Shown: positions 228 through 31,771 of the stretch, in pieces
How the letters are laid out: each line of letters starts with the position of its first letter
How positions within the stretch are numbered: position 1 is the first letter of the stretch
Assembly (NCBI GenBank): GCA_030528485.1
Contig: JAUMYU010000022.1
Coordinates: 1 to 33,398, forward strand
DNA length: 33,398 nucleotides
Reading direction: 5' to 3'
DNA from: Comamonadaceae bacterium
GTDB lineage: Bacteria > Pseudomonadota > Gammaproteobacteria > Burkholderiales > Burkholderiaceae_C
Translations under genes and position numbers: made by a program
Notes under the pieces: model-generated
Databases searched by the model: none
The model's input: the letters and a program-made list of their open reading frames with translations, nothing else
What the model was told of the DNA's origin: nothing

Positions 228-299
228 CAATAAAAAAATCCATTCATGTCAATATCAAAGCGACATGAATGGATTTTTGATTTTTCTTTGATTTGAAAT
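228..299 (+). repeat. AT-rich palindromic element, copy A (atypical), probable metQ terminator
   Basis: A perfect 17-bp stem, 234-250 with 262-278, encloses an 11-nt loop. The right flank (about 278-299, TTTCTTTGATTTGAAAT) matches the outer repeat of the other copies in this window. The central TTTYGGCA found in the other eight copies is absent, so membership rests on the outer arm and the strong inner stem. It starts 9 nt beyond the metQ stop codon, and A/T runs border the stem on both sides, so it can act as a terminator for metQ on the minus strand. Confidence 0.6.
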
Positions 300-307
300 A
301 AAGGCGA

Positions 308-1138
308 TTATTTTTGCAGCCAGGGGAAGTCGATCAGCTCGCCGTAGTGTTTGCGCAGCGTGGCGCGTACCTCGGGGCTTTGCTGGTAAATCTCGATGAA
401 TTGCAGGATGCGCGGGTCTTGGGCGCGTTCGGGTTTGGTTACCCAGCGGATGGCGTAGCGGCGCAGGTTTTCGGCGTCGGTGTTGTCGAAAAACAGCCCG
501 TCGGTTTCGGCAATGCCGGCCTGTTTGGCAAAGGTGGCGTAGGTGACGGAGGCGGTTACGTCATCGAAAGAGCGTGCGGCGTGCGCGCCTTCGATGGGGA
601 TGATGCGAATGTTTTTCGGGTTGGCGGTGATGTCTTCCAGCTTGGCTTGGGTCGTCACGCCGGACTTGAGCGTGATGAGCCCGGCCGATTGCAGCAGCAG
701 CAAGGCGCGCGCGGCGTTGACGGGGTCCGACGGAATGGCAATGGTGGCGCCCTCGGGCACGGCGTCGCTTTTTTTCAGCTTTTTGGAGTACAGGCCCATG
801 GTGGTCGAATAGCCGTAGGCAATGGGTGTGAGCTGGGCGTTTTGTTTCTGGTTGAACAACTGCAAAAACGGCGCGTGCTGGAAGAAGTTCACATCCACCG
901 CGCCATCGGCCACGGCGGTGTTGGGCAGCACCCAGTCGCTGAATTCCACCAATTGCACCTCCAGGCCCTGGGCCTTGGCTTGCTGGATGGCGACTTCCGT
1001 TGCTGCGTTGGCGACGACGGGGATGACGCCTACTTTGAGCGGTTTGCTCTCGCCTGCGGCCTGGGCCGCGCCCAGGGCAAAAGCGCAGCCGATGAGGGCC
1101 AGACGGCAGAGGTGGGAGAGGGGGCGGGAGGGGAGCAT
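308..1138 (-). CDS. metQ: MetQ/NlpA-family ABC transporter substrate-binding protein
   Basis: A periplasmic binding protein of 276 residues. The mature part begins near SKPLKVGVIPVVANAATEVA and contains DGAVDVNFFQHAPFL and YSTTMGLYSKKLK, typical of the NlpA/MetQ family, which binds methionine or related ligands for MetN-MetI importers. The chosen ATG (1138) gives a signal peptide; the frame continues upstream to 1303, but that extension is not signal-like. LIGC at residues 15-18 could be a lipobox, but the hydrophobic run continues to AQAA, so signal peptidase I cleavage is equally possible. No metN or metI is adjacent: ppsR lies 186 bp upstream and an IS end lies downstream. It is therefore an orphan in this window, and methionine specificity is inferred. 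Confidence 0.85.
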   Translation of the reverse strand: MLPSRPLSHLCRLALIGCAFALGAAQAAGESKPLKVGVIPVVANAATEVAIQQAKAQGLEVQLVEFSDWVLPNTAVADGAVDVNFFQHAPFLQLFNQKQNAQLTPIAYGYSTTMGLYSKKLKKSDAVPEGATIAIPSDPVNAARALLLLQSAGLITLKSGVTTQAKLEDITANPKNIRIIPIEGAHAARSFDDVTASVTYATFAKQAGIAETDGLFFDNTDAENLRRYAIRWVTKPERAQDPRILQFIEIYQQSPEVRATLRKHYGELIDFPWLQK

Positions 1139-1324
1139 GAGAGGCAGCCTTTCTGCGGTGGAGTGGGCCGTCGCTGGCGCAAAGCGGTGGCAAAGGCTGG
1201 CTGGTCGGCCATGCGCTGGGGCAACAAGCAATGGCAGCGGCGCATGGACGATGGCGGGACGGCGGGGTTGAATCGAGCCGCGCAGTATAGGCTGCGCGAT
1301 CAAGGGGCCGGGCGCGTGGGGGCG

Positions 1325-2149
1325 TTACTGCACGGCCATGCGGCCGGGCAGCAGCTCTTGCAAGATGGTGGTGGAGATTTCTTCAATCGATTTGGTGGTG
1401 GTGGAGAGCCAATTGACCCCCGCGCGGCGCATCATGCTTTCGGCCTCGTGCACTTCCATGCGGCAGTTTTCCAGGCTGGCGTAGCGCGAGCCGGGGCGGC
1501 GCTCGTTGCGGATTTCCGAAAGGCGCTCGGGCAGGATGGTCAGGCCAAAGAGCTTTTTCTTCAGCGGCGCCAGCGCGGCGGGCAGTTGGCGGCGCTCGAA
1601 ATCTTCCGGAATCAGCGGGTAATTGGCCACTTTCAGCCCGTACTGCATGGCCAGGTACAGGCTGGTGGGGGTTTTGCCGCTGCGGCTTACGCCCACCAGG
1701 ATCACGTCGGCGCTGGCCAGATCGGTGTTGGATTGGCCGTCGTCGTGCGCCAGCGTGTAGTTGATGGCCTCCATGCGGTCGGAGTATTCCTTGCTTTTGC
1801 TGATATCGGTGAAGCGGCCCACGCGGTGGTGCGATTTGATGCCCAGCTCCTCCTCCAGCGGGCGCACAAAGCGGCCGAACATGTCCATCACCAGCGCCTG
1901 GCAATGTTGGGCGAACACTTCCTGCACTTCGGGGTTGACCAGCGTGGTGAAGACGATGGGCTTGTGCTTGTCCAGATCAAAGCTGTGGTTGATCTGGCGG
2001 ATGGCCTGATGGGCTTTGTCCACCGTGTCCACAAACGGCAGGCGCACTCTGCGCGAATCCATATCAAACTGGGCCAGGATGGCGTTGCCGAACATTTCGG
2101 CGGTGATGCCGGTGCCGTCGGAGACGAAATACGTGGTGCGCTTGGGCAT
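1325..2149 (-). CDS. ppsR: Phosphoenolpyruvate synthase regulatory protein (bifunctional kinase/pyrophosphorylase)
   Basis: A 274-residue DUF299/PpsR protein. Family members reversibly phosphorylate PEP synthase on a threonine, using ADP to inactivate it and Pi to reactivate it, and so control gluconeogenic flux. The sequence shows FVSDGTGITAEMFGNAILAQ at the N terminus and the P-loop GVSRSGKT near residues 153-160. ATG 2149 is preferred over an in-frame TTG at 2164 because homologues begin just before the RTxxFVSDGTG block. The Shine-Dalgarno is weak. The gene is divergent from folA across 142 bp. The partner ppsA, which commonly lies divergent to ppsR in related bacteria, is not in this window. 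Confidence 0.93.
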   Translation of the reverse strand: MPKRTTYFVSDGTGITAEMFGNAILAQFDMDSRRVRLPFVDTVDKAHQAIRQINHSFDLDKHKPIVFTTLVNPEVQEVFAQHCQALVMDMFGRFVRPLEEELGIKSHHRVGRFTDISKSKEYSDRMEAINYTLAHDDGQSNTDLASADVILVGVSRSGKTPTSLYLAMQYGLKVANYPLIPEDFERRQLPAALAPLKKKLFGLTILPERLSEIRNERRPGSRYASLENCRMEVHEAESMMRRAGVNWLSTTTKSIEEISTTILQELLPGRMAVQ

Positions 2150-2291
2150 GGTTTTTTCAGTCAAACATAGGGGAAGAACAACGGGGCATCATAGAGCGAG
2201 TTGTGCGCCCGTCTCCTCCGGGTGCAGGGCGCTGTTGCAGTATGCTCTGCGCCCTTTTCAGAACCACAGCCCCGCGCCCTCGCTTTCGCCT

Positions 2292-30955: not shown

Positions 30956-31010
30956 TGGGCGTGCGATTGTAGTGTTGGCGGGTTGGCCTGTTCTGGCGGT
31001 GAACAGTCTG

Positions 31011-31568
31011 CTAGGCCGGGGCGGGGTAGCTGACCTCCAGCACCAGCAGGTGCTGCACGCCCGCCGGGGTGCGCAGCGTGACTTCGTCGCCGGCGCGGGC
31101 TTTGAGCAGGGCGCGGGCCACCGGGGCGATCCAACTGATGCGCTGTTGCAGGCTGTCGGCCTCATCGACGCCGACGATGGTGATGGTGTGCTCCTGGCCC
31201 TCGTCGTCCTCATAGCGCACGGTGGCGCCGAAGAAGATTTGCTCGTTGCCGTGGTGGAGGCTGGGGTCCACCACCTGCGCGATCTCCAGCCGTTTGGTCA
31301 GAAAGCGCACGCGGCGGTCGATTTCGCGCAGGCGTTTTTTGCCGTAGAGGTAGTCGCCGTTTTCCGAGCGGTCGCCATTTTTGGCGGCCCAGTGCACGGT
31401 TTCGACGATTTGCGGGCGCTCGGTTTCCAGCAACTGCCGCAGCTCGGCCTGCAAGCGGGCGTAGCCAGCGGGGGTGAGGTAGTTTTTCACGCCCGCTGGC
31501 AGCGCGGCGGCGGGCGGCGCTTCGCCTGGGTCGGCGGGGCTGTCTTCCTTGGTGAATGCTTTGCTCAT
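31011..31568 (-). CDS. greB: Transcription elongation factor GreB
   Basis: A 185-residue Gre factor that rescues backtracked RNA polymerase by stimulating transcript cleavage. The coiled-coil tip carries the acidic pair in GDRSENGDY (65-73), and LYGKKRLREIDRRVRFLTKR is the GreB signature. The C domain starts near VVDPSLHHGNEQIFFGATV, with later ISWIAPVARALLKARAGDEV. An N-terminal extension of about 25 Pro/Ala-rich residues precedes the usual start (E. coli GreB is 158 residues). ATG 31568 is the first Met. Repeat copies G1 and G2 lie directly upstream and could hold or disturb its promoter. Confidence 0.94.
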   Translation of the reverse strand: MSKAFTKEDSPADPGEAPPAAALPAGVKNYLTPAGYARLQAELRQLLETERPQIVETVHWAAKNGDRSENGDYLYGKKRLREIDRRVRFLTKRLEIAQVVDPSLHHGNEQIFFGATVRYEDDEGQEHTITIVGVDEADSLQQRISWIAPVARALLKARAGDEVTLRTPAGVQHLLVLEVSYPAPA

Positions 31569-31607
31569 GCGGGCGATGATAGGGCGGGTTGCGGCGGCTT
31601 GCTTCCC

Positions 31608-31687
31608 TTCTAATTCAAAGTGAATAGGGTTTGATGCCTGTCATGCCGAAACAGGGTCATTTATTTTCTTTTGATTTGTAAATCAAC
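31608..31687 (-). repeat. AT-rich palindromic element, copy G1
   Basis: On the minus strand it begins TTTACAAATCAAAAGAAAAT and carries ACCCTGTTTCGGCATG. CCTG (31637-31640) and CAGG (31652-31655) close an 11-nt loop with the core. It is back to back with G2 in the opposite orientation, upstream of greB. Confidence 0.8.
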
Positions 31688-31689
31688 GA

Positions 31690-31771
31690 TTTTTTTGCAC
31701 ATCAAAGACAATAAAATCACCCTGTTTCGGCATGGTGGGTATGAGGTTTGTTTTCTTTTGTTTTGTAATCA
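31690..31771 (+). repeat. AT-rich palindromic element, copy G2
   Basis: It contains CACATCAAAGACAATAAAAT, then CACCCTGTTTCGGCATGGTG, then the right arm TTTGTTTTCTTTTGTTTTG. CACC (31718-31721) and GGTG (31734-31737) flank the core. The right end overlaps the TGA stop of the minus-strand hpnE gene. Confidence 0.8.

Follow-up and report, generated by a model that had tools for sequence, protein, structure and literature searches.

What keeps a family of short, AT-rich repeats at the ends of genes in a GC-rich genome? The question is raised by a 33,398-nucleotide stretch of DNA from a bacterium of the Comamonadaceae (contig JAUMYU010000022.1 of assembly GCA_030528485.1, positions 1 to 33,398; hereafter the window), in which an initial annotation had listed nine palindromic intergenic elements, read as possible small transposons, REP-like elements or a lineage-specific 3'-end signal. 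Small dispersed repeats are commonly interpreted either as REPs, which form hairpins, or as dead miniature inverted-repeat transposable elements (MITEs). The last of the three proposals is the best supported by the present analysis: we favour, with a probability of roughly 0.45, a MITE-like repeat that would have been amplified in one lineage and subsequently kept as an orientation-independent insulator or terminator at gene ends, a putative function suggested by the placement and sequence conservation of the copies.

Copy number and distribution

All nine elements are present, and eight of them belong to one family: a profile hidden Markov model (HMM) yields eight matches in the window at E<0.01, and none in dinucleotide-randomised versions of every searched stretch, and the same eight are matched by a sequence model. 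The copies are indeed AT-rich, with a GC content of 0.23-0.36 against 0.62 for the window. The core TTTYGGCA, attributed to eight copies, is exact in seven, the copy at 3433 carrying TTTTGGCT; the 8-mer alone is not diagnostic, because it also occurs at five places outside the elements.

The source genome (G000) is a draft of 2.36 Mb in 132 contigs, 80.5% complete, of the Allofranklinella lineage of the Comamonadaceae; G009 is a sister genome of the same genus, whose main aligned blocks are 91-96% identical to the window. The relatives searched and the source genus are placed in one family. Copies were sought with the profile HMM, at E<0.01 in the window, in two further source contigs and in G009, and with the sequence model, built on 64 training rows, including 4 of the 8 window copies. 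The 8 window copies and 36 in the two contigs (156 kb) make up a source sample of 44, while 50 copies were found in 206 kb of G009; extrapolation gives about 545 copies in the source genome and 680 in G009, figures perhaps somewhat high, because the contigs had been chosen for holding matches. Randomised sequence contained no copies by the same profile search. A single window copy, used as blastn query, finds at least 40 matches in the source genome (40 of 178 candidates were scored, and all of them matched), and a profile made from the window copies finds 76 in 243 kb, a biased sample taken mostly around matches. Over the whole source genome, an 18-mer core pattern with up to two mismatches is matched 98 times, against once for the reversed control, far above the approximately 20 copies per genome that the initial annotation had set as a lower limit for a genuine family.

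In other genomes the family is nearly confined to the same lineage. The sequence model finds at least 150 matches each in G000 and G009, four in G005, one each in G007 and G008, and none in G001, G002, G003, G004 and G006, with the best candidates, up to 150 per genome, being scored. The six matches outside G000 and G009 comprise three strong ones (E ~1e-16; one in G008, the other two in G005) and three weak ones: the single match in G007 and a weak one in G005 share one place and may be decayed copies or chance, while another weak G005 match is the degenerate neighbour of a good copy. Among 399 genomes from 141 genera of the family, matches were found in this genus only (blastn E<1e-6; model E<1e-4, under stricter filters, 11 candidates being scored). 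Exact matches to a 22-nt core pattern, sought throughout the GTDB species genomes, lie in four contigs, all of Allofranklinella schreckenbergeri NML 97-0147 (Comamonadaceae). Plasmids and phages gave no match at E 0.001. Seven exact 17-mer matches in viral contigs, where the best profile match has E 0.005 and spans part of the element, and a 21-nt exact core match in a genome of another family (G025; E 6e-4), were taken as chance. Four relatives, examined over 80-120 kb each, yielded no comparable repeat family; a few of their intergenic regions share longer repeats. Literature searches found no description of this repeat family, which is not proof of its being unpublished, as most subscription journals lie outside their coverage.

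Position at gene ends

Gene ends were located by a simple home-made gene caller, incomplete in that only 75-83% of the source and G009 stretches was called as coding. As had been stated for the window, copies lie outside genes: among 94 copies in seven stretches, none is inside a gene (no overlap of more than 25 bp with a predicted one), 39 being found in convergent, 46 in tandem and 9 in divergent gaps. In the source sample, the share of gaps holding an element is 17/25 for convergent, 20/107 for tandem and 3/24 for divergent ones (convergent versus tandem, p 4e-6); the corresponding figures in G009 are 16/23, 23/115 and 6/23 (p 7e-6).

The nearness to stop codons, also noted initially, proved general. 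The median distance to the stop is 13 nt in the source sample, against 31 nt for random placement within the same gaps, and 14 nt against 38 nt in G009; none of 2000 simulations gave medians as low. This comparison, restricted to non-divergent gaps with 10 to 600 free bases, took in 38 of the 44 source and 37 of the 50 G009 copies. When a stop is adjacent, the copy lies within 10 nt of it in 20 of 41 source and 21 of 44 G009 cases, and among tandem copies 17/21 and 17/25, respectively, are closer to the stop upstream than to the start downstream. Orientation is near random: it is the same as that of the genes for 13/21 source and 14/25 G009 tandem copies, and the same as that of the nearest gene for 12/20 and 13/19 convergent ones. 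Four doublets are known in the source sample; in three, all convergent, each copy lies near a different stop.

Conservation between orthologous copies

Sequence comparison indicates that the elements are under selection, and are not mere relics, because the core and the positions of high information content are conserved in orthologous copies. For 39 of the 44 source copies, the alignment with G009 runs through the element at the corresponding position; two more occupy the same site beside a G009-only segment, and three have no G009 sequence or flanks. In the reverse direction, both flanks were placed for 39 of the 50 G009 copies. The 11 others include two weaker copies within G009-only segments (1.3 and 6.6 kb) and one doublet copy which, in the source genome, is cut in half at the edge of a 1.2-kb segment; for the remainder, sequence is lacking, a longer segment lies beside the copy, or the copy is the ortholog of the 228-299 element.

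The 39 aligned pairs let selection be seen base by base. Divergence amounts to 21/782 (2.7%) at the positions of highest information and to 75/271 (27.7%) at those of lowest information (Fisher p ~8e-30), and per-position divergence tracks information content (Spearman -0.79), the latter having been derived from copies in 36 other stretches, including four that overlap the two contigs. All six core positions tested are unchanged in 35 of 39 pairs, while the same test on neighbouring windows gives 46 of 117; a count by consensus position agrees (156/1957 changed against 185/642). Gene conversion between copies was considered as a source of the differences between orthologs and rejected: the differences show no clustering (lag-1 z = 1.6, other lags -1.4 to 0.3), and conversion is therefore unlikely.

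Anatomy of the element

The element is made of two inverted arms of about 17 bp (about TTACAAATCAAAAGAAA), with an asymmetric core, TTTYGGCAtgatgG, between them. The consensus, obtained from an alignment of 105 source copies and a tool alignment of 64, is about TTTTACAAATCAAaAGGAAA-N-AAAAT-NN-CCTTGTTTYGGCATGATGGTAAT-N-AA-N-TT-N-ATTTTCTTTTGATTTG, and the arm-to-arm length is 74-75 bp in 33/44 source and 42/47 G009 copies.

The term palindromic, if taken to mean a constrained hairpin, does not hold for the family as a whole. In the arm pairs tested, the fraction of standard pairs is near the expectation from independent columns. A separate count gives 80.1% paired, against 80.3% after shuffling, and compensatory pairs are not in excess. 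Sliding the partner by 1-3 columns lowers pairing to 38-65%, as expected of any inverted repeat. For the alignment of the core-bearing copies, hereafter class I, RNAalifold predicts 0 pairs. A hairpin as the common principle of class I was rejected on these grounds. Since the arms show no covariation, the inverted repeat would be kept as two half-sites and not as a helix, and the arms look like inverted protein-binding half-sites rather than a hairpin.

A second class bearing a hairpin

Arm pairs without the core were found at two places in the source and at three in the G009 stretches. Members of this second class (class II) have a conserved hairpin and no core. One source and one G009 pair are orthologous and enclose a stable hairpin with T tracts, the source copy filling its convergent gap exactly; a second G009 pair also contains a stable hairpin, while the third is weak. 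The other source pair is the ninth element of the window, the one at 228-299. Its kinship with the family, as initially claimed, stands, but it lacks the core and carries a perfect inner hairpin instead. As delimited here, it spans 216..303 on the minus strand and lies at the 3' end of a metQ-like gene of that strand (stop 308), an intrinsic-terminator hairpin replacing TTTYGGCA. Its right arm is good and its left arm degenerate; the arm scan detects the former, whereas the scored left arm falls in the loop. The G009 ortholog has both arms, the left one being clear. Both sides of the 14-bp inner stem differ between the two orthologs, with three double compensatory changes and full pairing in both, as judged by eye. 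That a few copies have an ordinary intrinsic-terminator hairpin where the core would be, the arms on either side being the same, suggests that both classes serve gene ends.

Spread and mobility

Six window sites were compared with relatives (20 stretches from four genomes, not every site in each), and no element was found there at E<10. At the 5495 site, the element is absent, with both flanks aligned, in G004, G005, G007 and G008, the gap measuring 71 nt in G005 against 129 nt in the source genome; among the other 16 stretches, 13 have one flank aligned and 3 none. The family features several MITE traits, being short, non-coding, present in many copies and bounded by terminal inverted repeats, and the 5495 site provides the filled and empty states as well.

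No single element was seen to be gained or lost by itself among the comparable sites of the source and G009. Target-site duplications are not convincing in any of 105 copies, the best case being a weak 2-nt excess (27 against 16.4 expected) in AT-rich flanks; age could hide them. The search for solitary arms, covering 190 kb of source and 206 kb of G009 sequence, returned 8 and 11 candidates, among which the only high score, 25.0, is that of the 14490 copy, and the next is 19.0, against medians of 26-28 within elements; no clear solitary arm pointing to an autonomous partner with the same ends was thus found in this sequence. The Y1 (REP) transposase domain PF01797 has 0 matches in the 80.5%-complete source genome; 5 of 14 control genomes match. 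The small-transposon proposal is supported in part, by the lineage-restricted amplification and the empty site, but no target duplication, partner or single-element gain or loss has been seen in the sequence searched.

G009-only segments of 1.0-1.2 kb adjoin elements orthologous to those at 24.9, 41.8 and 53.8 kb of a source contig (G000 C42; L054-L055, G009 C1), as if mobile DNA favoured such places or the source genome had lost the segments.

Origin and possible function

The course of events that we favour would start from a few copies of the family, probably present in the ancestor of a small Comamonadaceae clade, which were amplified to hundreds in the Allofranklinella lineage, probably by a transposition-like process. 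Single copies would then have stayed put, many of them directly behind stop codons, where position-specific conservation indicates that selection holds them. The selected feature is most likely DNA recognised by a putative protein dimer or complex, and not an RNA fold, because orientation is near random and the arms are without covariation; its job would likely be to mark gene ends in both directions, as a roadblock to RNA polymerase or by insulating convergent neighbours. We consider doubtful, if conceivable, the more specific version in which a dedicated DNA-binding protein acts on a bipartite 75-bp site, transposon-like spread brought this site to hundreds of 3' ends, and the site works as a two-way transcription-ending roadblock, interchangeable with hairpin terminators between the arms. 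The family, for which the apparent target of selection is the DNA itself, at gene ends and within one recent lineage whose close relatives are nearly without it, would therefore represent a natural experiment in the conversion of a mobile-like sequence into a gene-end signal used throughout a genome, and it bears on whether bacteria end or insulate transcription units by protein-bound sites.

Various observations weigh against a gene-end function. A canonical terminator is also present at 16/36 source and 15/32 G009 convergent gene ends with an element, sometimes inside it, so that the element is not always needed for termination. Among source tandem ends, a terminator is found at 1/19 when an element is present and at 12/68 when it is not (p 0.28), and the trend is opposite in G009 (4/22 against 9/74): the idea that the element replaces canonical terminators was rejected. 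Full termination would be odd at 5495-5569, where the copy splits a response-regulator/histidine-kinase pair, and all gene ends depend on the home-made caller. Conserved positions alone do not identify which process acts; moreover, orthologous copies were picked by a model match in one genome, a choice which should not alone create the conservation pattern in the other, though it may sharpen it. Structure is not wholly irrelevant either, because inner inverted repeats exceed those of column-shuffled copies (mean score 7.95 against 6.94). Finally, the favoured model does not explain why low-information positions differ by 28%, against 8.6% for fourfold-degenerate sites. Non-coding sites outside elements diverge by 7.1%, and the first 10 nt beyond the elements by 21.5%, declining with distance; spacers of gaps with elements diverge by 11-13%, against 6-7% for gaps without, although few gaps were covered. 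Transitions and transversions number 214 and 151 inside elements, against 1420 and 580 at more than 100 nt from them. Part of the excess divergence may stem from codon constraint and gene-calling error, and a locally raised mutation rate beside elements is possible.

Selection for a gene-end role has to be weighed against other explanations. The copies could be neutral relics of a MITE burst, inserted widely, purged from genes and promoters and now decaying at gene ends, as the lineage-restricted burst, the absence from genes, the empty 5495 gap in four relatives and the degenerate second copy in G005 would suggest; this rival is already weakened, and rather unlikely, given the strongly position-specific conservation of orthologs and the fact that copies are closer to stops than random placement within the same gaps would bring them. 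A structured RNA, acting through its hairpin as an intrinsic bidirectional terminator or as a REP-like stabiliser of mRNA 3' ends, would account for the core-less arm pairs with stable hairpins (one source and two G009 places, one source/G009 pair being orthologous), for the compensatory changes in the 228-299 copy, and for the strong individual inner inverted repeats found in 5 of 105 copies, against 0.25 expected, along with the mean score above that of shuffled copies. Ordinary copies, with pairing near chance, no covariation and no pairs predicted by RNAalifold, make it decidedly unlikely as an account of the family. By analogy with what has been proposed for E. coli REP/BIME-2, the element might instead be a topology site, recruiting gyrase or a nucleoid protein at the positive supercoils between convergent genes. 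The convergent bias, the near-random orientation and the REP/BIME precedent, as presented in PMC1525189 and PMC6379681, are in line with such a role; yet the E. coli gyrase motif is described in the latter as about 130 bp long, degenerate and periodic at 10.75 bp, whereas the present element is sequence-specific over 75 bp and, among 11 periods tested, 10.5 bp is the weakest, which leaves this explanation unlikely.

Two further explanations invoke continuing movement of DNA. Were the arms live recognition sites of a putative transposase or recombinase, and the element still mobile, their near-fixed spacing and inverted arrangement, the high copy number, the two weaker copies within the G009-only segments of 1.3 and 6.6 kb and the doublet copy halved at the edge of the 1.2-kb segment would all follow. 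The lack of single-element gain or loss among comparable sites of the two species, and of target duplications, clear solitary arms and Y1 transposase matches in the sequence searched, renders this very improbable. Maintenance by biased DNA uptake and recombination, as for an uptake signal, would fit a lineage-specific, abundant sequence with a conserved core and near-random orientation. Known uptake signals are far shorter than the 75-bp element, no copy lies inside a predicted gene, and at the one site that could be compared on both sides the difference is an added segment and not point changes, so that an uptake signal is scarcely credible.

Comparison with known repeats

According to PMC1525189, REP/BIME sequences are found in hundreds of intergenic copies, placed at gene ends with a preference for convergent genes, and in this respect the present family resembles them. 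REPs are 20-40 bp long and carry a GTAG or CGTC tag at one end, as described in PMC3733652; the present elements, in contrast, measure 75 bp, are AT-rich and have consensus ends without either tag, and they show no hairpin covariation, no Y1 transposase match in the 80.5%-complete genome and no Rfam family in the stretches searched. The REP-like proposal is supported by placement, but length, base composition and the lack of covariation and of a transposase match argue against it.

BRE repeats are about 90 bp long, mostly intergenic, present in Comamonadaceae and sometimes in tandem, and those of Bordetella have a mean GC content of 69% and at most 29 copies in the genomes listed (PMC3110155). 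The present family, with 23-36% GC in the window copies and hundreds of copies, is set apart from them by this description, the sequences not having been aligned. Intrinsic bidirectional terminators likewise lie behind stops and between convergent genes, and class II copies contain one; class I differs in having a conserved core instead of a common GC-rich stem, although single copies do have a stem.

The Correia/NEMIS repeats of Neisseria are MITE-like inverted repeats, with many intergenic copies, in Betaproteobacteria. Their terminal sequence is probably different; the present family further differs by its conserved central core, near-fixed length and lack of visible target duplication. In Rfam, the window matches one tRNA only, and 6 of the 36 stretches gave nothing at the gathering score, with four sub-threshold matches, one of which touches the edge of a copy. 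The initial statement that REP, ERIC, BIME and Correia elements are not matched agrees with this result, the comparison having been made against Rfam only. A sub-threshold Thr_leader match (41.9 bits, gathering 55) adjoins an element copy at 2823-2938 of one stretch (L006). On the whole, the family belongs to a known kind, the dispersed intergenic bacterial repeat: it shares the distribution of REP/BIME or Correia-type repeats, and fails the tested defining features of REP/BIME and BRE.

Elements of the window

The class I copies of the window illustrate the variety of gene contexts. On the plus strand, the element at 3434..3511 (E=4.7e-18), whose core reads TTTTGGCT, begins 2 nt past the coaD stop in a convergent gap and is followed by a separate canonical terminator at about 3515-3552. 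The copy at 5495..5569 (plus strand, E=2.8e-18) separates two minus-strand genes, one for a response regulator (stop 5582) and the other for a histidine kinase; an element within this gap (5453-5581) could alter histidine-kinase expression. At 8866..8944 (minus strand, E=5.1e-12), the stop of a HemY-like gene, also on the minus strand, is 7 nt away. A divergent class I copy with a longer interior, at 14493..14580 (minus strand; E=3.0e-6 by the model, 4e-4 by the HMM), has a thiolase gene (stop 14476) on one side and a LysE/RhtB-type exporter gene on the other.

Two doublets complete the set. The first is formed, on the plus strand, by 17108..17182 (E=2.9e-9), found 8 nt past the proC stop and also containing a unique inner hairpin, and 17187..17263 (E=1.6e-11), which abuts the stop of the converging htpX-like gene. 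The second consists of copies in opposite orientation, the inner one at 31609..31684 (minus strand, E=4.1e-16), upstream of greB (minus strand), and the other at 31691..31768 (plus strand, E=4.5e-18), abutting the stop of hpnE (minus strand).

Window positions 17323-18968, comprising most of the htpX-like gene and a neighbour, have no counterpart at the corresponding place of the G009 stretch. Positions 1-136 resemble the end of an insertion sequence and recur in G000, G009, G007, G001 and G006; a MITE-like repeat of about 170 bp in G009 (C1, ~292190-292364), absent at the same place in G000, has ends (close to GAGCCTGTTCAAAATCT) similar to this segment.

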